Shown here in pieces: positions 9,626 to 50,836 of a DNA stretch of 64,000 nt. Every line of letters begins with the position of its first letter. The stretch's first letter is position 1. The DNA comes from Enteroscipio rubneri (GTDB lineage: Bacteria > Actinomycetota > Coriobacteriia > Coriobacteriales > Eggerthellaceae). The stretch spans positions 1 through 64,000 of the forward strand of contig NZ_PPEK01000010.1 in the NCBI RefSeq assembly GCF_002899715.1, read 5' to 3'. Both the position numbers and the translations under genes were made by a program. The notes beneath the pieces are model-generated. The model was not told where the DNA came from. It did not search any database and worked only from the letters and a program-made list of their open reading frames with translations.

Positions 9626-10966
9626 TTACTCCTTCCCGAGATCGACCGTCAGGCCGTCCATAATCTGATTTACGGTGCGCATGGCGCACATCTCGCCGCA
9701 CATGGTGCAAGTGCCCTCCGTCGAGGGCGGCGCGCTCTCGAAATACTCCCGCGCACGCACGGGATCGAGCGCCTCGGCGAACATGCCCTCCCAGTCCACG
9801 CGGCGGCGCGCGTCGCTCATGCGGTTGTCGGCATCGCGCGCGCCGGGCACGCCCTTCGCGATGTCGGCCGCGTGTGCGGCGATCTTCGTTGCCACAAGGC
9901 CCTCGCGCACGTCGGCGGCGTCGGGCAAGCGCAGGTGCTCGGCCGGCGTGACGTAGCACAGGAAGTCGGCGCCCGAGGCCGCGGCCACAGCTCCGCCGAT
10001 GGCGGCCGTGATATGATCGTAGCCCGGCGCGATGTCGGTGACGAGCGGCCCCAGCACGTAGAAGGGTGCGTCGTGGCACAGGCGCTTCTCCAGCTTCATG
10101 TTGGCGGCGATCTCGTCGAGCGCCATGTGGCCCGGGCCCTCCACTATCACCTGCACGCCCGCATCCCATGCGCGGCGCGTGAGTTTGCCGATCTCGATGA
10201 GCTCGGCGATCTGCCCCGCGTCGGTGGCGTCGTAGGTGGACCCGGGGCGCATGGCGTCGCCCAGGCTGATGGTTACGTCATGCTCGTGCAGGATGGCCAG
10301 CACCTCGTCGTAGAACTCGTAGAAGGGGTTCTCGTTGCCGGTGGCCTCCATCCAGGCGAAGATGAGCGACCCGCCGCGGCTCACGATGTTCGTGAGGCGG
10401 CCCGTCTCGCGGAAGCTCTCGATGGTGCGACGGTTCATGCCCGCATGGACGGTGACGAAGTCCACGCCGTCCTGGGCATGCGCGCGCACCACGTCGAGGA
10501 AGTCCTCTGCCGTGATGGTGACGAGCGGCTTCTCCAAATAGCCGATGGCGTCGTACATCGGCACGGTACCGATCATCGCCGGCGACTTCTCCACGAGGGC
10601 GCGCCGGAACGCGGCCGTCTTGCCGCTGTTCGACAGATCCATGATGGCCTCGGCGCCCAGTTCAAGGGCCACGTCGACCTTCTTCCATTCCTCGGCCTCG
10701 CAGGCGACGTCGCCCGAGATGCCCAGGTTCACGTTCACCTTCGTGCGCAGGCCGCCGCCCACACCCTCGGGCGAGAGGCTCGCATGGTGGATGTTCGCAG
10801 GAATGGCGATGCGCCCGGCCGCCACACCCTCCCGGATGTACTCGGGGTCGCGCCCCTCCTTTTCGGCCACGGTGCGCATGGCCGGCGTGACGGTGCCCGC
10901 GCGGGCGTGGTCGATTTGCGTGACCGATGCAGGATTGCCGCGCGCTGCGGCGCTGATCTGCGTCAT
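9626..10966 (-). CDS. thiC: phosphomethylpyrimidine synthase
   Basis: ThiC is the radical-SAM enzyme that converts aminoimidazole ribotide to HMP-P. The 446-residue protein contains [62 protein letters not shown] and the C-terminal cluster motif [10 protein letters not shown]. The cysteine spacing there is CX2CX3C, one residue tighter than the CX2CX4C I recall for the long E. coli form. The start ATG at 10966 follows GAAGGGAG and lies directly after the TPP riboswitch. An ATG 27 bases upstream is inside the riboswitch and is unlikely to be used. Confidence 0.95.
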
Positions 10967-10971
10967 AGAAC

Positions 10972-11073
10972 TCCCTTCGTTGGCATTACCCATGTCAGGT
11001 TCCTCGGGTCGAAGCGTGCATCGGCGCTTCCTCTCAGCCTGCCCGGCCGCGACGCGGCTGCAAGCTCCCCGGT
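10972..11073 (-). promoter_or_regulatory. TPP riboswitch (THI element)
   Basis: Read on the minus strand, the segment holds the conserved blocks of the TPP aptamer in order: CCGGGGAGC, GGCTGAGAGG, then ACCTGACATGGGTAATGCCA and GAAGGGAG, which is also the ribosome site of thiC. Because the 3' side of the aptamer includes the Shine-Dalgarno, control is likely at translation initiation. TACAAT on the minus strand (11094-11099) is a plausible -10 for this transcript. Confidence 0.95.
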
Positions 11074-11106
11074 ATGAAAAGGTGCGGATCAGATTGTAGC
11101 GCGCTC

Positions 11107-34722: not shown

Positions 34723-35293
34723 TCGCCATCCTCGTTGCAATACTATGAAGCACATGCCTCATGTCATGTCCGATCCGGTCGAACCGTCCATACCCTCCTA
34801 GCATAGCACGACTGAACGGCGGGTGCGCCGCCGCGACATGCCCTCCGGCTTTACAGCATCGAGGCCGAGACGCAGCACCCTTGTCTCCCCGGCATCCTCC
34901 TGCTCGGCCATGAGATCGATCATCGGGAAAGCGGCTCGGCGTCGAACTCGGTCGACGTCGAGCCGGACATGCCAGCTACGTGCTGCGAAAACTCGCACTC
35001 AGCAGCCTGCAACCCCAGGCAGACGGCCTAAACGGTACGCCGCTATCGCGCATATAAGGGCAGCAGCGATATGCTCGGAAAGCCGCCACTTGAGAGCGCA
35101 TATGAGCGCCTACTGGGTCGTCTTTTCGTAAAAGACCATTCCCGACCTCGAAGAGGTGCCCGACGAGATGCGAAAGTAGGCTATAATCTAACGGTTGCAT
35201 CGAGCCGTCCGCGTCGCAGGCGGCTCTTCCGTTTGCTTCGGACACCAATGCGTCCGCAAGCAGGCTCGTCCACGCCGAGAAAGGTTCGCCTCC
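34723..35293. other. intergenic stretch with small frames and a promoter
   Basis: No recognised gene is found in these 571 bp. A minus-strand frame at 34798-34998 (66 codons, GTG start, coding-like third positions, many Arg) could be a small or remnant gene but has no clear ribosome site. A hairpin GTCTTTT-CGTA-AAAGAC lies near 35119-35136. TATAAT (35182-35187) is a perfect -10 for the downstream DUF1846 gene, without a good -35. Confidence 0.4.
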
Positions 35294-36775
35294 ATGCGCA
35301 TCGGATTCGACAACGACAAGTACATCGCATTGCAAGCGGAGCATATCCGCAACCGCATCGACCAGTTCGGCGGCAAGCTCTACTTGGAGTTCGGCGGCAA
35401 GCTATTCGACGACTACCATGCTTCGCGCGTGCTGCCCGGCTTCGAGCCCGATACCAAGATCCGCATGCTGAAGAACCTCATCGACGACGTCGAGATCATC
35501 GTCGCCATCAACGCCAATGACATTGAGAAAAGCAAGGTGCGTGGTGATTTAGGCATCACCTATGACGACGACGTGCTGCGCCTCATGGACATCTTCCGCA
35601 GCATGGGTTTTCTGGTGGGCAGCATCGTCATAACCCACTATGCCAACCAACCCGCCGCCGACGCGTTCCGACATCGGCTGGACAGTCTCGGCATCACAAG
35701 CCGGTTGCACTACCCCATCGCCGGCTACCCTTACGACATCGATCATATCGTCAGCGACGAAGGGTACGGGAAGAACGAGTTCGTCGAGACGAGCCGCCCG
35801 CTCGTTGTTGTCACTGCTCCCGGCCCCGGATCGGGCAAGATGGCCACCTGCCTCTCGCAACTCTACCACGAGCACAAGCGAGGGGTGACCGCCGGCTACG
35901 CCAAGTACGAGACGTTCCCCGTATGGAACCTGCCGTTGAAGCACCCCGTAAACGTGGCCTACGAGGCCGCCACGGTCGATCTTGACGATGCGAACATCAT
36001 CGATCCGTTCCATTTGGAGGCTTACGGGCAGACCACGGTCAACTACAATCGCGACGTGGAGATTTTCCCCGTGCTCAAAGCCATGATGGAGCGTATTTCA
36101 GGTTCGAGCCCCTACCAATCCCCCACCGACATGGGCGTGAACATGGCGGGCTCGGCTATCGTCGACGACGAGGTGGTATGCGACGCGGCCCGCATGGAAA
36201 TCGTGCGCCGTTACTTCCAGACCGCCGTCGAGGTAAAGCGCACCGGCGTCGGACACGCACAGGTGGAGAAACTCGAATTGCTCATGAACCAAGCCGGCGT
36301 GAACGCAAGTTTATCCCCTGCGCGCAGCGCCGCCCTACTGAAGGAGGAGATGACCGGACGTCCCGCCGGCGCGATGGTGCTGCCGAACGGCGCGGTGGTG
36401 ACCGGCAAAACTTCGACGCTTCTGGGCGCGGCATCCTCGCTCATGATGAACGCGCTCAAAGGCGTGGCGGGCGTAGACGACGGCATCGACGTCATCAGCG
36501 ACAACGCCATCGAGCCCATCTGTCGGCTCAAGACCGAGCGGCTTCACAGCAAAAACCCGCGTCTGCATTCCGACGAGACGCTCATCGCGTTGTCCATCAG
36601 CTCGGCAACCGACCCTTTGGCCGCACAGCTCATCGAACATGTGGACGACCTGCGCGGATGCGACGCATTCTTCTCCGTCATCATCTCATCGACCGATGAG
36701 AAGCTCTACCGCACATTGGGCATCAACGTCTGCTGCGAGCCGAAGTACGAACAGCACCGCTACTACCACAAGTAG
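35294..36775 (+). CDS. DUF1846 domain-containing protein
   Basis: The 494-residue protein matches the DUF1846 family as I remember it (FDNDKYIALQAEHIRNRIDQFGGKLYLEFGGKLFDDYHASRVLPGF at the start, split for length, and VTAPGPGSGKMATCLSQLYHEH near residue 180). The glycine-rich stretch PGPGSGKMAT looks like a phosphate-binding loop. Family function is unknown. The start at 35294 is preceded by GAGAAAGG. It is monocistronic, with a promoter upstream and double hairpins downstream. Confidence 0.85.
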   Translation: MRIGFDNDKYIALQAEHIRNRIDQFGGKLYLEFGGKLFDDYHASRVLPGFEPDTKIRMLKNLIDDVEIIVAINANDIEKSKVRGDLGITYDDDVLRLMDIFRSMGFLVGSIVITHYANQPAADAFRHRLDSLGITSRLHYPIAGYPYDIDHIVSDEGYGKNEFVETSRPLVVVTAPGPGSGKMATCLSQLYHEHKRGVTAGYAKYETFPVWNLPLKHPVNVAYEAATVDLDDANIIDPFHLEAYGQTTVNYNRDVEIFPVLKAMMERISGSSPYQSPTDMGVNMAGSAIVDDEVVCDAARMEIVRRYFQTAVEVKRTGVGHAQVEKLELLMNQAGVNASLSPARSAALLKEEMTGRPAGAMVLPNGAVVTGKTSTLLGAASSLMMNALKGVAGVDDGIDVISDNAIEPICRLKTERLHSKNPRLHSDETLIALSISSATDPLAAQLIEHVDDLRGCDAFFSVIISSTDEKLYRTLGINVCCEPKYEQHRYYHK

Positions 36776-36780
36776 AGCGC

Positions 36781-36808
36781 TTTCCGGCGCTCCGCAGAGC
36801 GCCGGAAA
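36781..36808 (+). terminator. terminator of the DUF1846 gene
   Basis: TTTCCGGCGCTC, loop CGCA, GAGCGCCGGAAA followed by AA, 5 bp after the stop codon. The 12-bp stem is perfect. Confidence 0.75.
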
Positions 36809-36821
36809 AAGCCCCGAATCG

Positions 36822-36857
36822 AAAGAGGGTGCCCGTTTTATGCGGGCACCCTCTTTT
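36822..36857. terminator. bidirectional terminator
   Basis: AAAGAGGGTGCCCG (36822-36835), loop TTTTATG, CGGGCACCCTCTTTT (36843-36857) gives a 14-bp stem with T-runs on both strands. It serves the DUF1846 gene and the convergent NlpC/P60 gene. Confidence 0.88.
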
Positions 36858-36887
36858 AGCGGCTGCTGCAACGAATGCCGCCGAGCG

Positions 36888-38072
36888 CTACGGCCGGCGA
36901 ACGAACACCATGCCGCTCTGCACAGAGCTCACCTTCACGACGTCGCCCGTGCGGGGAGCGTGGATCATCTGGCCGCCGCCGATGTAGATACCAGTGTGTT
37001 GGCGCGAGGAAGTGTGGATGACACATACGTCGCCGGGCTGGGGGTTGCTCACACGCGGCCAGCCAATAAACGTGCCGGTGGTCCCCAAACGCGAGTAGCT
37101 GCCGGTGAGCGCATAGCTCACAAGACCGGAACAGTCGTAGGAGTTCGGACCCGAAGCGCCCCAGGAGTAGGGTTTGCCGAGCTGGCTGTATGCGCGGTCA
37201 ACCACGGCGTTGCCGGTAGAGGGATTGTAGGACGGACCGGACGAGCCTCCGCCGCCGTTCGAGTTGCCGCCCGAATTGGCGTTGTTGTTACCACTCGATC
37301 CGCCGTTGTTCGTGCTGGCGCCGCCGTTGTTCGATCCGTTGTTGCCGGAAGCGCCGGCGTTATCGCTCTCGGCCGCCTGAGCAGCCGCTGCAAGCACGGC
37401 TTCGGCCTGCGCCGCTGCAGCGGCCTCTTCGGCGGCGCGCTCCTGTTCCAGAAGCTCGGCGGCCTCAGCACTCAGGCTGTCGTAGGTGGCCTGCATGGAC
37501 GCGACCGTGGACGCGGCCTCCTCCTCGATGCGCTTGGCTTCGTCGGCCTTTTCCTGGGCGACGCGCGCCTGCTCTTCGTAGACCGCCTTCTCGTCCTCAA
37601 CCTCGGCGCGCAGGTCCTTGGTCTGCTGCACCATCTCTGCGTCGCTCTCGTTGATCTGGGCCAGCATGTCCCAGTTGGTGGCGAAGGCCTGGAAGCTCGT
37701 GGAGCCCAGCAGCAGGTCGAGCATCGAGGAGCTACCCGAGCGGTACATGGTGCGGGCCCGGTCGCCCAGATGCTCCTGCATCTCAGATATCTGCCCGTTC
37801 AGCTCGTCGATGCGCGCTTGGGCGGCATCGCGGCTGTCTTCGGCCTCCTGCTGCTCGGAGAGCGCAGAGAAGTGGTTGTTGGAAGCCTGGTCGAGCTTGT
37901 CCTGCATCGCGTTCAGCGAAGCCAGAGCGGCATCAGCTTCGGCGCGCTTGTCTGCGGCCGTGGGTTCGGCTATCGCAATCGCAGGCGAGCTGAAAGCGAG
38001 GGGGACCGCCAACAGGGCGGAGAGCGTAAGGCAGAGAAAAGCCTTGAAAGTGCGTTGCGTGTTTCGTGTCAT
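36888..38072 (-). CDS. secreted coiled-coil NlpC/P60 peptidoglycan hydrolase, copy 1
   Basis: The 394-residue protein has an N-terminal signal peptide (AFLCLTLSALLAVPLAFSS), a long coiled coil of about residues 40-225 with a central LLLGSTSFQAFATNWDML, and an Ala/Asn/Gly/Ser-rich linker of about 60 residues. The C-terminal NlpC/P60 domain has Cys314 (YDCSGL), His359 (QHTGIYIG) and His371 (MIHAP). Such PcsB/RipA-like proteins cut stem-peptide bonds during cell separation. It is one of three tandem paralogs, and its coiled-coil DNA is almost identical to copy 2. It has its own promoter. Confidence 0.9.
   Translation of the reverse strand: MTRNTQRTFKAFLCLTLSALLAVPLAFSSPAIAIAEPTAADKRAEADAALASLNAMQDKLDQASNNHFSALSEQQEAEDSRDAAQARIDELNGQISEMQEHLGDRARTMYRSGSSSMLDLLLGSTSFQAFATNWDMLAQINESDAEMVQQTKDLRAEVEDEKAVYEEQARVAQEKADEAKRIEEEAASTVASMQATYDSLSAEAAELLEQERAAEEAAAAAQAEAVLAAAAQAAESDNAGASGNNGSNNGGASTNNGGSSGNNNANSGGNSNGGGGSSGPSYNPSTGNAVVDRAYSQLGKPYSWGASGPNSYDCSGLVSYALTGSYSRLGTTGTFIGWPRVSNPQPGDVCVIHTSSRQHTGIYIGGGQMIHAPRTGDVVKVSSVQSGMVFVRRP
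37421..37865. repeat. near-identical DNA block in NlpC copy 1
   Basis: These 445 bp align without gaps to 38758-39202 in copy 2, and I count only two differences (the positions following GAGGAGCT and within CTC-GATATC). Flanking sequence on either side diverges, as expected for recent gene conversion or selection for a fixed coiled coil. Confidence 0.9.
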
Positions 38073-38122
38073 GTTTGCACCTTTTCGATACTTCGTTGCG
38101 ATTGGGCGGTTGAAGTTGCTTC

Positions 38123-38171
38123 AGCATACCAACCGAAGCTCGCTTTGACAAACGATATGGGAAAGCTCCAC
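38123..38171 (-). promoter_or_regulatory. promoter of NlpC copy 1 with shared upstream element
   Basis: On the minus strand TTGTCA (38146-38151), 17-bp spacer, TATGCT (38123-38128). The -35 and the bases upstream (GACAAACGAT...GAAAGCTCCA on the plus strand, to 38171) are also present before copy 2, which implies common control. Confidence 0.75.
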
Positions 38172-38326
38172 AGGGCAGGCTCGAAAAAAGCGGAATAGTC
38201 ATCGCCGCGTTTACGTAACGACGGCGAGTCGACTCATCGGAGCCGGCTTGCATCCATACCCGCTCCCACGCGGCACGAGGACGCCCCGCTCGGACGCCCT
38301 CGCAGCACCGCACGCTAGCAGCTTGG

Positions 38327-39406
38327 TTACGGCTGACGCACGAAAATCATGCCGCTGTGCACGGGTCCGACCTTCACGACGTCGCCCGTGCGCGGGGCGT
38401 GGATCATCTGGCCGCCGCCGATGTAGATACCGCAGTGATGGTCATTCGTGCAGATGTCGCCCGGCTGAGGATCGCTTACGCGTGGCCAGGACATGAACGT
38501 GTAGGTGGTGCCCACACGCGAGTAGCCTCCCGTGAGCGCATACCCGACAAGACCGGAGCAGTCGAAGGAGTTCGGACCCGTGGCACCCCAGACGTAGGGT
38601 TTGCCGAGTTGGCTGTACGCACGATCGACGATGGCGTTGCCAGTGGAGGGAACGTACGACGGCGCGCCGCCACCCCCGCCGCCCCCGCGGTTGGTATTGG
38701 CCGCAGCGGCCTCCCGTGCCGCAGCTTCGACGGCAGCGGCGGCAGCCGCAGCGCGAGCGGCCTCTTCGGCGGCGCGCTCCTGTTCCAGAAGCTCGGCGGC
38801 CTCAGCACTCAGGCTGTCGTAGGTGGCCTGCATGGACGCGACCGTGGACGCGGCCTCCTCCTCGATGCGCTTGGCTTCGTCGGCCTTTTCCTGGGCGACG
38901 CGCGCCTGCTCTTCGTAGACCGCCTTCTCGTCCTCAACCTCGGCGCGCAGGTCCTTGGTCTGCTGCACCATCTCTGCGTCGCTCTCGTTGATCTGGGCCA
39001 GCATGTCCCAGTTGGTGGCGAAGGCCTGGAAGCTCGTGGAGCCCAGCAGCAGGTCGAGCATCGAGGAGCTGCCCGAGCGGTACATGGTGCGGGCCCGGTC
39101 GCCCAGATGCTCCTGCATCTCGGATATCTGCCCGTTCAGCTCGTCGATGCGCGCTTGGGCGGCATCGCGGCTGTCTTCGGCCTCCTGCTGCTCGGAGAGC
39201 GCCTGGCCGTAATCGGCCGAGGCTTGATCGAGCTGCTCCTGCATGGCGTTCAGCGAGGCGAGGGCAGCCTCGGCCTCGGCCTGTTTCTCGGCAGCTGTCA
39301 CGGCATGTGCCGACGTCGGAGAACCGAAGGCGACAGGAACAGCCAGCATGAGGGAAAGGAGAAGGCAGACGGCCGCCTTTGATGTGCGTTGTACGTTTCG
39401 AGTCAT
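38327..39406 (-). CDS. secreted coiled-coil NlpC/P60 peptidoglycan hydrolase, copy 2
   Basis: The 359-residue paralog has a signal peptide (AAVCLLLSLMLAVPVAFG), a coiled coil of about residues 38-225, a shorter Ala-rich and Gly-rich linker (TNRGGGGGGGAPSYVPS), and the NlpC/P60 domain with FDCSGL for the catalytic Cys and DHHCGIYIGGGQMIHAP for the two His positions. The linker and catalytic domain differ from copy 1 while the coiled coil is nearly identical. It has its own promoter, so the three genes are probably separate transcription units. A role in daughter-cell separation or wall remodelling is inferred. Confidence 0.9.
   Translation of the reverse strand: MTRNVQRTSKAAVCLLLSLMLAVPVAFGSPTSAHAVTAAEKQAEAEAALASLNAMQEQLDQASADYGQALSEQQEAEDSRDAAQARIDELNGQISEMQEHLGDRARTMYRSGSSSMLDLLLGSTSFQAFATNWDMLAQINESDAEMVQQTKDLRAEVEDEKAVYEEQARVAQEKADEAKRIEEEAASTVASMQATYDSLSAEAAELLEQERAAEEAARAAAAAAAVEAAAREAAAANTNRGGGGGGGAPSYVPSTGNAIVDRAYSQLGKPYVWGATGPNSFDCSGLVGYALTGGYSRVGTTYTFMSWPRVSDPQPGDICTNDHHCGIYIGGGQMIHAPRTGDVVKVGPVHSGMIFVRQP
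38758..39202. repeat. near-identical DNA block in NlpC copy 2
   Basis: This is the partner of 37421-37865, with two differences over 445 bp. Its 5' part (38731 to about 38910) also matches copy 3 (about 40070-40247) exactly or nearly so, and a shorter patch matches near 40348-40420. Confidence 0.9.
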
Positions 39407-39448
39407 GTTTGCACCTTTTCAATACTTCGTATTCAGAAAAGCAACCGT

Positions 39449-39497
39449 ATCATAGCAATCGAGTGCACGGTCGACAAACGATTCGAGAAAGCTCCAT
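39449..39497 (-). promoter_or_regulatory. promoter of NlpC copy 2
   Basis: On the minus strand TTGTCG (39472-39477), 17-bp spacer, TATGAT (39449-39454). The upstream element seen before copy 1 is repeated up to 39497. Confidence 0.75.
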
Positions 39498-39573
39498 AAG
39501 AGCCCATCCGACTTACCGAAGCGATTCGGTGAGGGATCGATCGCAAACGCATGGCATGGAACCCGCTGGGAAC

Positions 39574-39623
39574 GGGCGCCTTCGCTCCCTGAAACAGCGA
39601 AGGCGCCCGTACGGGCGCCTTCG
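39574..39623 (-). terminator. three-arm terminator region after NlpC copy 3
   Basis: CGAAGGCGCCC (39598-39608) can pair with GGGCGCCTTCG at 39613-39623 (loop GTAC) or with the identical GGGCGCCTTCG at 39574-39584 (13-base loop). It lies 27 bp beyond the copy 3 stop. The tight hairpin would form first on the minus-strand transcript. Confidence 0.65.
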
Positions 39624-39649
39624 GATCATTCGTCAAAACAGAGGGCTCG

Positions 39650-40738
39650 CTAGGGCCGCACGTAGATCATGTCGCTGTGGACCGCGCTGACTTTCACAAC
39701 ATCGCCCGTCTGGGGAGCGTGGATCATCTGACCTCCGCCGATGTAGACGCCGCAGTGGTGATCGTTCGTGCAGATGTCGCCCGGCTGGGGATTGCTCACC
39801 TGACGAAGCCCCATGAGCGAGCCGGTGGTGTACACATGGGAATAGCTGCCGGTGAGTGCGTAGCTCACGAGACCCGAGCAGTCGTAGGAGTTCGGCCCGG
39901 CAGCACCCCACGCATAGGGCTTGCCGAGTTGGCTGTACGCGCGGTCGACGATCGCATTGCCCGTTGAGGGTACGTAGGGCGGCTCGCTTGCGCCGTTGTT
40001 GCCATCGCCATTTGAGTTCGCGCCCCCATTGCTGCTGCCACGTGAGCTATCGTTCGTTGCCGCATCGGCAGCGGCGGCAGCCGCAGCGCGAGCGGCCTCT
40101 TCGGCGGCGCGCTCCTGTTCCAGAAGCTCGGCGGCCTCAGCACTCAGGCTGTCGTAGGTGGCCTGCATGGACGCGACCGTGGACGCGGCCTCCTCCTCGA
40201 TGCGCTTGGCTTCGTCGGCCTTTTCCTGGGCGACGCGCGCCTGCTCGGCGAAGACAGCCTCCTGCTCCTCGACCTCGGCGCGCAGATCTTTGGTCTGCTG
40301 GACGAGGTCGGCGTCCTCAGAGTTGATCTGCGTGAGAAGATCCCAGTTGGTAGCGAAGGCCTGGAAGCTCGTGGAGCCCAGCAGCAGGTCGAGCATCGAG
40401 GAGCTGCCCGAGCGGTACATGCTGCGAGCGCGGCTGCCCAAACGATCCTGCAAGTCGGCTATCTGGCCGTTCGCCTCGTCGATGCGCTCTTGTGCTGCAT
40501 CGCGGCTCTTTTCAGCCTCCTCCTGCTCGGAAAGCGCTGTGAAGTAGTTGTTGGATGCACGATCGAGCTGTTCCTGCATGGTGTTGAGGGAAGCGAGAAC
40601 CGCTTCGGCTTCTGCTCGCTTCTCCGCCGAGGTGGGATCGGCGAACGCCGTGGCCGGCACCATGAGCGAAACCGCCAAAACCACCGCCGTGAATCCTGCC
40701 AACGCGCCTTTGCCGTATGCGAACCGAGCCTGTTGCAT
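39650..40738 (-). CDS. secreted coiled-coil NlpC/P60 peptidoglycan hydrolase, copy 3
   Basis: The 362-residue paralog has a signal peptide (GFTAVVLAVSLMVPATAFA), a coiled coil of about residues 40-230, a linker rich in Ser, Asn and Gly, and an NlpC/P60 domain with YDCSGL, DHHCGVYIGGGQMIHAP and conserved PQPGDICTND. Parts of its coiled-coil DNA are identical to copy 2 and other parts have diverged (for example QINSEDADLVQQ), so conversion was patchy. The start at 40738 has GGAGG upstream; an upstream ATG 26 codons earlier precedes the signal peptide and is unlikely. Confidence 0.9.
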   Translation of the reverse strand: MQQARFAYGKGALAGFTAVVLAVSLMVPATAFADPTSAEKRAEAEAVLASLNTMQEQLDRASNNYFTALSEQEEAEKSRDAAQERIDEANGQIADLQDRLGSRARSMYRSGSSSMLDLLLGSTSFQAFATNWDLLTQINSEDADLVQQTKDLRAEVEEQEAVFAEQARVAQEKADEAKRIEEEAASTVASMQATYDSLSAEAAELLEQERAAEEAARAAAAAAADAATNDSSRGSSNGGANSNGDGNNGASEPPYVPSTGNAIVDRAYSQLGKPYAWGAAGPNSYDCSGLVSYALTGSYSHVYTTGSLMGLRQVSNPQPGDICTNDHHCGVYIGGGQMIHAPQTGDVVKVSAVHSDMIYVRP

Positions 40739-40855: not shown

Positions 40856-41347
40856 TCAGTCGGCAGCACCTGCACGGTCGAAGCCTTCATCGACAATACG
40901 GCCTTCCCCATCGGCGGCGGACGTTGCAAGCTGGTCGCATCGCTCGTTCTCCGGATGGCCTGCATGTCCTTTCACCCATACGAATTCCACGCGGTGAGGA
41001 GCCTTCGCGGCCAGCAGCCGCTTCCACAGATCGATATTTTTTACAGGTTCCTTCTTCGCATTCTTCCATCCGCGCCTGAGCCATCCGTCCACCCAATGCT
41101 GGTTGAAGGCGTTCACCACGTACTGCGAATCAGAATAGAGCGTAACCTCGCACGGCGCTTTGAGGACCTCGAGGGCCGCAATGGCGCCCAATAGCTCCAT
41201 TCGGTTGTTGGTGGTGCATTCGTACCCCTGCGAGAGCTCCTTGACGTGCAGGTTTCCGTTACCGTCAACGTGCTGCAGCACCGCGCCGTAGCCGCCGGGA
41301 CCCGGGTTGCCGCGCGCGGCGCCATCCGTATATATGGTCACGTCCAT
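40856..41347 (-). CDS. rnhA: ribonuclease HI
   Basis: RNase HI removes RNA from RNA-DNA hybrids. The 163-residue protein has the four catalytic acids in place: Asp8 ([16 protein letters not shown]), Glu51 (NRMELLGAI), Asp73 (YSDSQYVV) and Asp138 (NERCDQLA). Full length matches the family. AAAGGATCC lies upstream of the chosen ATG. It follows larC on the same strand after about 94 bp, and the two may be co-transcribed. Confidence 0.94.
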
Positions 41348-41441
41348 GTCAGGATCCTTTCGCAGGGAGACGCCCGTCATGATATCACAGCGCGCGGCAC
41401 TGATAGCCTCCCTGGATGCGAACGTACGCGATGCGGCAAGG

Positions 41442-41996
41442 TCACACCTCGAAACGATCCACGAAGTGCAGGATAATGGCGGCGGATGTAGGCGTGCAGC
41501 GCTCCCCATCGAGCCGCCGCTTGCATACCGGGATACCGCGAGCGAGGATGGCGGCGGTAGCCGGAGCTGGCACGGACAGCTCTCCGTGAGCACAGCGCAC
41601 CGTCCCTTTTCCCGCTTGCACGGCCGTCGCCACGATCTTTTCAGGTTCCACCGCCTCGACAGCTAGGCAGATGCCAAGCGCATTGCGGATAGCCGCGCCT
41701 TCGCCCACCTCATGGAAGTGCGTCGAGTCGACATCGCAGCCATGCGCGGCGGCCTCGGCTTCAGCGAGGATGCGGTAGATGCCGCGCAGATCATCCTTCA
41801 CGCGCTCGCTCGCGTCAAGCGCATCGATGACGGCGAGCACTGCCGCAAGATTGCGATGATGCCCTTCGGGGACAACGGCGGCATCCCACTTCGCCTTCAC
41901 CGCCGTACGCTCGTCATCGGGAAGCGCTGCATACGTTGCTTGCAGCAGGGCATCCCTCGTCGCCCATTCCTGCAAATCCCAGTACAGGACCGTCAT
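41442..41996 (-). CDS. LarC N-terminal-half protein
   Basis: LarC inserts nickel into the pincer nucleotide cofactor. Only the N-terminal part of the family is present: 184 residues with [36 protein letters not shown] and [17 protein letters not shown] complete LarC is about 400 residues, and in some species two frames are joined by ribosomal frameshifting. I found no second half in any frame before rnhA. It overlaps larB by 4 bases (ATGA). Either a truncated form works with a distant partner or it has another role. Confidence 0.8.
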
Positions 41997-50209: not shown

Positions 50210-50836
50210 ATGCGATGAGCCTCCATCTGATTGCTTCTCATAACGCCTCTTCCGACTGACCTAGTCTTTGCCCCCACACTCGCGCACCGGGGTCGAGCTT
50301 GCACCCGGTACCCTCTCGTCCGGCGCAGCCATGTGCCGCGCAAGGTAGCGGACGGTGCGACTTACCTCTAGGATGCGCCATGATCGTCGCGCTGAAAAGC
50401 GCGGCTTACGTGGGTCCTTTCGACCGCATCTGCCGTGGACTGAGGTTGTGAAACCCGCAACTACAGACTCGAAAGAAGCGACAAACAGTGTAGCAGATCA
50501 TGAAAAGCCCCGGAACAAGGCGCGCATAATATGCGGAATCGACGGCATGCTCCGCGGCATCGACGGCATGCGAGAAGTAGAGAAAACGGTTTGGAATGCA
50601 AAGCCGAATACGACGATTGGCGATCGAGCTCGTCCGGACGGAGATTCGACCGGCACGACGCGCGCGCCGAAACGAGGTGGAGTCGATGCGATACTCGTGC
50701 TGGAACGACGTTGGAATGCCGCTCGGTCGGAGCTTACTCGGCAGCACGGCGGTCGTTGGTTTCCATCGGGTGGGCATCGGCTCGCGCTCGACCGACGGCA
50801 AGGTTTCCGCTGGAGGGCCCATGGTAGGCTCGATCC
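50210..50836. other. intergenic stretch before comF
   Basis: I see no recognisable gene in these 627 bp. Short frames exist on both strands (for example 50406-50822 minus and 50596-50925 plus) without motifs or good ribosome sites. CGACGGCATGC is repeated at about 50539 and 50560. The promoter of the minus-strand lipoprotein must lie near 50210-50300. Confidence 0.35.

Follow-up and report, generated by a model that had tools for sequence, protein, structure and literature searches.

Tracts shared by the coiled coils of three tandem NlpC/P60 hydrolase genes suggest recurrent gene conversion in a predicted FtsX-docking hairpin

Why does one block of coding DNA stay almost identical between neighbouring hydrolase genes that have diverged on both sides of it? 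The question is raised by an array within the window, the 64,000-nucleotide stretch of DNA analysed here, which belongs to a draft genome of 2.83 Mb (43 contigs, 99% complete) whose closest named relatives by array protein are Eggerthellaceae. A preliminary description had placed three tandem NlpC/P60 genes at 36888-40738, which is where they lie, all on the - strand and transcribed in the order W3-W2-W1. The genes and the elements around them are as follows.

36888..38072, - strand: W1 (copy 1), secreted hydrolase with CC_PcsB and NlpC/P60 domains, 394 aa, with the longest Gly/Asn linker
38327..39406, - strand: W2 (copy 2), CC_PcsB and NlpC/P60 as in W1, 359 aa
39650..40738, - strand: W3 (copy 3), CC_PcsB and NlpC/P60 as in W1 and W2, 362 aa, transcribed first
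Upstream of the W3 ATG: GGAGG, ribosome-binding-like, read directly from the sequence
39449..39477, - strand: promoter-like site upstream of W2, TTGTCG-17-TATGAT, a consensus match only
38123..38151, - strand: promoter-like site upstream of W1, TTGTCA-17-TATGCT, a consensus match only
36821..36857, - strand: strong GC-rich inverted repeat past W1, read directly and not called by the scan
40856-41593: neighbour read as rnhA, named from its translation
35195-36775: neighbour facing the array, read as DUF1846, named from its translation

The two promoter-like sites were the only ones found in the stretch scanned, where 0.5 were expected, and they occupy matching positions upstream of their genes; the inverted repeat past W1 is probably the terminator of the array. 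In the one congener returned (G001), two such genes occupy the corresponding position, flanked on both sides by the same neighbours. Long ORFs run antisense to the array (36639-38198 and 38357-39382, + strand, 519 and 341 aa), and these are probably a by-product of the 63% G+C content rather than genes. Elsewhere in the window, a raiA RNA (50247-50477, - strand), a large conserved structured RNA, scored well above its gathering score, and a TPP riboswitch (10955-11081, - strand) scored narrowly above it (55.8 vs 54.3 bits).

All three proteins combine a signal peptide, a CC_PcsB coiled coil, a low-complexity linker and an NlpC/P60 domain, where the N-terminal signal peptides are as we read them from the translations. 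W1, W2 and W3 exceed the curated cut-offs for both NlpC/P60 (PF00877; 62.7, 53.4, and 53.6 bits vs 23) and CC_PcsB (PF24568; 48.8, 49.0, and 45.4 bits vs 27). The Cys-His-His triad is present in each, in DCSG, as the His before [TC]G[IV]YIG, and in MIHAP; among 41 sequences, the first Cys and His are invariant and the third His is at least 90% conserved. A difference around the first catalytic His had been described as a pair of residues preceding it, and the residues indeed differ (QHT in W1, HHC in W2 and W3), although one precedes the His and the other comes after it. The residue after this His varies among other homologues as well.

The near-identity with two differences claimed for W1 and W2 was borne out as a 447-bp tract made up of exact runs of 80, 50, and 315 bp with single mismatches between them, both synonymous (W2 residues 69-217). 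W3 shares patches, as had been noted: its exact matches measure 69 and 173 bp to W2, and 53 and 156 bp to W1. A run of 28 identical polymorphic sites, as seen between W1 and W2, was not reached once when the 308 polymorphic columns were shuffled 20,000 times. The tracts are located as follows.

37419..37865, - strand: conversion tract in W1, 447 bp with 2 differences from W2
38756..39202, - strand: conversion tract in W2, partner of W1 37419-37865, W2 aa 69-217
40074..40246, - strand: W3 tract identical to W2, 173 bp
38724..38911, - strand: W2 partner of the 173-bp W3 tract, in helix 2, a 188-bp span including a 15-nt alignment gap
40353..40421, - strand: W3 tract identical to W2 39018-39086, 69 bp, at the hairpin tip (lip)

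Structure prediction gives a hairpin at residues 38-235, with helices at 38-110 and 141-235 and the tip between them (mean pLDDT 82, pTM 0.51). The W1/W2 tract covers most of this hairpin, and the earlier statement that only the coiled coil is homogenised is right in that the tract falls within it; helix 1, however, begins with ~30 residues (about 38-68) that lie outside the tract and are diverged.

Synonymous divergence (NG86 pS) was compared along residues 36-75, 76-222, and the catalytic domain at 249-358. Between W1 and W2, pS was 0.66, 0.05, and 0.43 in the three blocks, which agrees with the divergence previously ascribed to linkers and catalytic ends; W2/W3 gave 0.73 before, 0.19 within, and 0.57 after the middle block, and W1/W3 gave 0.55, 0.24, and 0.58. 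Counted per site, the W1/W2 coiled coil carries 4.5 synonymous changes in 99.7 sites compared with 52.6 in 108.0 for the flanks (Fisher p 1.6e-14). Purifying selection acts on the catalytic domains (pN 0.12-0.16 vs pS 0.43-0.58). A recent whole-gene duplication is rejected, since synonymous divergence is unequal along W1-W3. Equal divergence along the genes had been named as the result that would speak against gene conversion, and it did not occur; conversion between tandem copies is well supported and is the simplest explanation of the tracts.

The comparison was extended to the window plus 41 other loci (67 genes; one genome, G040, belongs to a different family within the order), loci that were taken mostly from best matches, so that distant arrays are under-sampled. 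In 22 of the 42 genomes the stretch compared contains two or more coiled-coil NlpC genes, giving 28 within-genome pairs. The second array gene of G117 was omitted because an unread base breaks its frame past the coiled coil (L173 5701-6714, - strand), in all likelihood owing to a sequencing gap. Across 2183 between-genome pairs, the synonymous divergence of the coiled coil divided by that of the flanks averages 1.04 (sd 0.13), with a minimum of 0.64. Six of the 28 within-genome pairs, from four of the 22 genomes, fall below this minimum: the window (0.09, 0.31, and 0.41), G099 (0.26), G073 (0.50), and G094 (0.56). None of the 28 lies above the 95th percentile of the between-genome ratios.

G099, which matches Adlercreutzia faecimuris JBNU-10, has two genes with 309 identical bp at W2 residues 73-175, and the tracts in G073 and G094 (W2 aa 154-185 and 162-184) lie in helix 2, outside the FtsX-contact part discussed below. 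The window contains multiple tracts, and three more of the 22 array-bearing genomes, from related genera, present clear cases; the word recurrent, which had been used from the window alone, is supported. Conversion is nevertheless not a general rule, as a recent tract is absent in 18 of the 22 array genomes, whose 22 pairs have ratios of 0.81-1.26. Among these, the arrays of G018, G030, and G068, which share flanking genes with the G099 array, have ratios of 0.86-1.11 and behave as ordinary old duplicates without excess coiled-coil identity.

An older signal appears in the trees. The coiled-coil tree (147 columns) groups the copies of a single genome together in 11 of 22 cases, eight with support of at least 95/80, and the catalytic-domain tree does so in 1 of 22. 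For the quartet of W1 and W2 against the two G001 genes (G001a and G001b), amino-acid sites split 22:0:0 for the coiled coil and 3:0:8 for the catalytic domain. The catalytic tree rejects a clade of the G001 genes (AU p 0.018), and does not reject same-genome clades for G073 (0.12), G094 (0.18), G099 (0.44), or the three window genes (0.31); thus one of five within-genome sets is rejected, on a poorly resolved tree. All four cross-genome sets tested on the coiled coil are rejected, but these sets were picked after the trees were seen. A catalytic clade of W2 with G001a is not rejected (p 0.325), and at catalytic third positions W1 goes with W2 at 10 sites, more than the 3 at which W2 goes with G001a. 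The catalytic tree being weakly resolved, the argument for the window rests on the tracts and not on the trees.

What the converted part may do is suggested by RipC. As described in the portions of PMC10694151 dealing with the FtsEX/RipC complex, the lip and adjoining helix ends of RipC touch FtsX, mutation of Tyr111 and Met112 abolishes FtsX binding, the start of helix 1 (residues 47-62) plugs the active site in autoinhibition, and Tyr288 and Trp290 wedge the catalytic domain into the hairpin. The corresponding part of W2 is the following.

38960..39109, - strand: counterpart of the RipC FtsX-contact part, W2 aa 100-149, including Tyr109, from alignment to 8idc_E and the portions of PMC10694151 cited above

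This segment comprises the end of helix 1, the lip, and the start of helix 2 and lies within the W1/W2 tract; by homology, it is predicted to be the part that contacts FtsX. Tyr109 aligns with RipC Tyr111 and is kept in at least 90% of the 41 sequences, in which Trp273 is also at least 90% conserved and Tyr271 is invariant. Met112 is replaced by Arg110 in W2, a point against the predicted docking. The 38 relatives from named loci served only the structure alignment. Exactly one FtsX extracellular domain was found in 59 of 60 genomes and none in the remaining one, and all 41 genomes searched for CC_PcsB domains carry between one and six. In the window genome, the single FtsX is encoded at L141 5682-6587 (FtsX_ECD 68.5 bits vs a cut-off of 23.5), just downstream of a gene that we read as FtsE. 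A fourth CC_PcsB protein of this genome (L142 6536-7657, G000 contig 5) has an M23 peptidase in place of NlpC/P60, which may represent the same docking-type module on a different hydrolase. In G040 (L147 5265-13212), ftsE and ftsX are followed ~3.5 kb on by two tandem coiled-coil NlpC genes together with a shorter NlpC gene, an arrangement that ties FtsEX loosely to these hydrolases at the genomic level.

The reading that we favour, and consider probable, is that the array encodes three secreted RipC/PcsB-like peptidoglycan hydrolases whose FtsX-docking hairpins have been overwritten by repeated ectopic conversion between divergent flanks. The hairpin tip of each is predicted to dock on the extracellular domain of the only FtsX in the cell, and a flexible linker would join the hairpin to the Cys-His-His peptidase. 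Conversion would have overwritten the remainder of helix 1, the lip, and helix 2, leaving the signal peptide, the helix 1 start, the linker, and the catalytic domain with their own divergence. We infer that the three hydrolases compete for, or share, one FtsX socket, and FtsX compatibility may be the reason why converted coiled coils persist; the simplest model would be one socket and several hydrolases with a common plug. Coevolution is not counted as support, since lip distances showed no relation to FtsX extracellular-domain distances given FtsE (partial r 0.04-0.07; 22 genomes, 231 pairs); the corresponding values were 0.25-0.27, a weak relation, for the whole coiled coil and 0.27-0.37 for the N-terminal part.

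Other origins of the tracts were weighed against this reading. Misassembly, with reads from a single coiled coil assigned to both genes, is conceivable in a draft of 43 contigs, but we regard such an artefact as extremely improbable: two fixed differences split the W1/W2 tract, G099 has its independent 309-bp exact tract in a 520-kb contig of another genome, and in our judgement such confusion could arise only for near-identical copies. We give practically no credence to a constraint at the DNA level, by RNA structure or an antisense gene, that would keep the stretch identical. The + strand ORFs of 519 and 341 aa opposite the array would fit it, but the same stretch compared with the syntenic congener G001 has near-saturated synonymous sites (pS 0.59-0.94), which refutes it and indicates that this DNA is free to change. 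Another alternative reverses the roles, with recent duplications whose catalytic ends were replaced by recombination with other hydrolases. It could account for the lower correlation of catalytic-domain distances with those of FtsE (r 0.26-0.27 vs 0.53 for the coiled coil) and for the catalytic domain of G001b, which is of another type than those of W1-W3. However, divergence ahead of the tract (pS 0.55-0.73) is on a par with that of the catalytic domain, so that a 3'-end swap alone is insufficient for W1-W3, and the catalytic domains of W1 and W3 are closest to that of W2 and not to a foreign donor; we find this alternative very unlikely for W1-W3, and G001b may have undergone such an exchange.

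A further alternative accepts conversion and removes its purpose: tracts would arise neutrally wherever long homologous blocks stand in tandem, with the indel-rich linker stopping them and no selection for docking. The coiled coil is the longer block (147 vs 110 codons), and by block length the location of all four recent cases in it has p = 0.11; the G073 and G094 tracts, off the FtsX contact, also suit a neutral process. So does the N-terminal part, which in the 22 pairs without recent tracts is likewise more alike within genomes (0.594) than between them (0.496). Against it, tree-discordant genomes favour the coiled coil in 10 cases and the catalytic domain in none (p = 0.004 under independence, an assumption that does not fully hold), and amino acid identity between genomes is equal for the coiled coil (0.523) and the catalytic domain (0.527), so that the coiled coil is not merely the most conserved part. 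In genomes lacking recent tracts, copies resemble each other more in the coiled coil than in the catalytic domain (0.634 vs 0.549); the four conversion-positive genomes were excluded from these averages, and 66 close between-genome pairs were left aside, as they had been picked by catalytic-domain identity and were hence biased. Taken together, neutral conversion appears somewhat unlikely, and a preference of conversion for the coiled coil is suggestive, no more. Conversion may serve to keep the coiled coil common while the catalytic ends specialise. It may also be guessed that the helix 1 start, the counterpart of the RipC autoinhibitory plug, co-diverges with its own catalytic domain; the points at which tracts begin, W2 residue 69 (window) and 73 (G099), fit this idea, and the arrays without recent tracts, in which the helix 1 start behaves like the coiled coil, speak against it.

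FtsEX systems have mostly been described with one main coiled-coil partner. Returning to conversion of docking hairpins, it is a tentative generalisation that in Eggerthellaceae one FtsX drives tandem hydrolases and recurrent conversion copy-edits an interchangeable docking hairpin, leaving the catalytic ends free. If true, these arrays would form a natural series of cassette-swapped division hydrolases. One FtsX with several converted partners would reveal which residues have to fit FtsX and which are the catalytic end's own; the arrays would also be a clean bacterial example of domain-restricted concerted evolution. The parts are already known, namely FtsEX-dependent coiled-coil hydrolases and conversion between tandem genes; no report joining such hydrolases with gene conversion came up in searches of open-licence full texts.

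Among known systems, mycobacterial RipC (Rv2190c) comes closest. It is the first-ranked Foldseek match, in the FtsEX/RipC complex (E 3e-9), as well as the best PDB sequence match, and it shares the signal peptide, the hairpin with lip, the linker, and the NlpC/P60 Cys-His-His domain. W1-W3 match the RipC model NF038345 over nearly its full length at 120-123 bits, below its cut-off of 425, and differ from RipC in the Gly/Asn-rich linker, the Arg in place of Met112, the three tandem copies, and the converted hairpins. PcsB, the streptococcal FtsEX partner, has the CC_PcsB domain in common with W1-W3, in which it scores above the Pfam cut-off, but the array proteins reach only 26-39 bits against a cut-off of 450 in the PcsB model, and their catalytic domain is NlpC/P60. 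Cg1735, the RipA of Corynebacterium, takes Foldseek ranks 2 and 3; the triad of RipA homologues ends in Glu according to the portions of PMC10694151 cited, whereas the third residue of W1-W3 is His. In the combination of duplication, conversion, and divergence within one gene family, the array resembles the vertebrate TLR1 family as presented in the part of PMC3125219 drawn on here, with the difference that the genes concerned are bacterial wall hydrolases.
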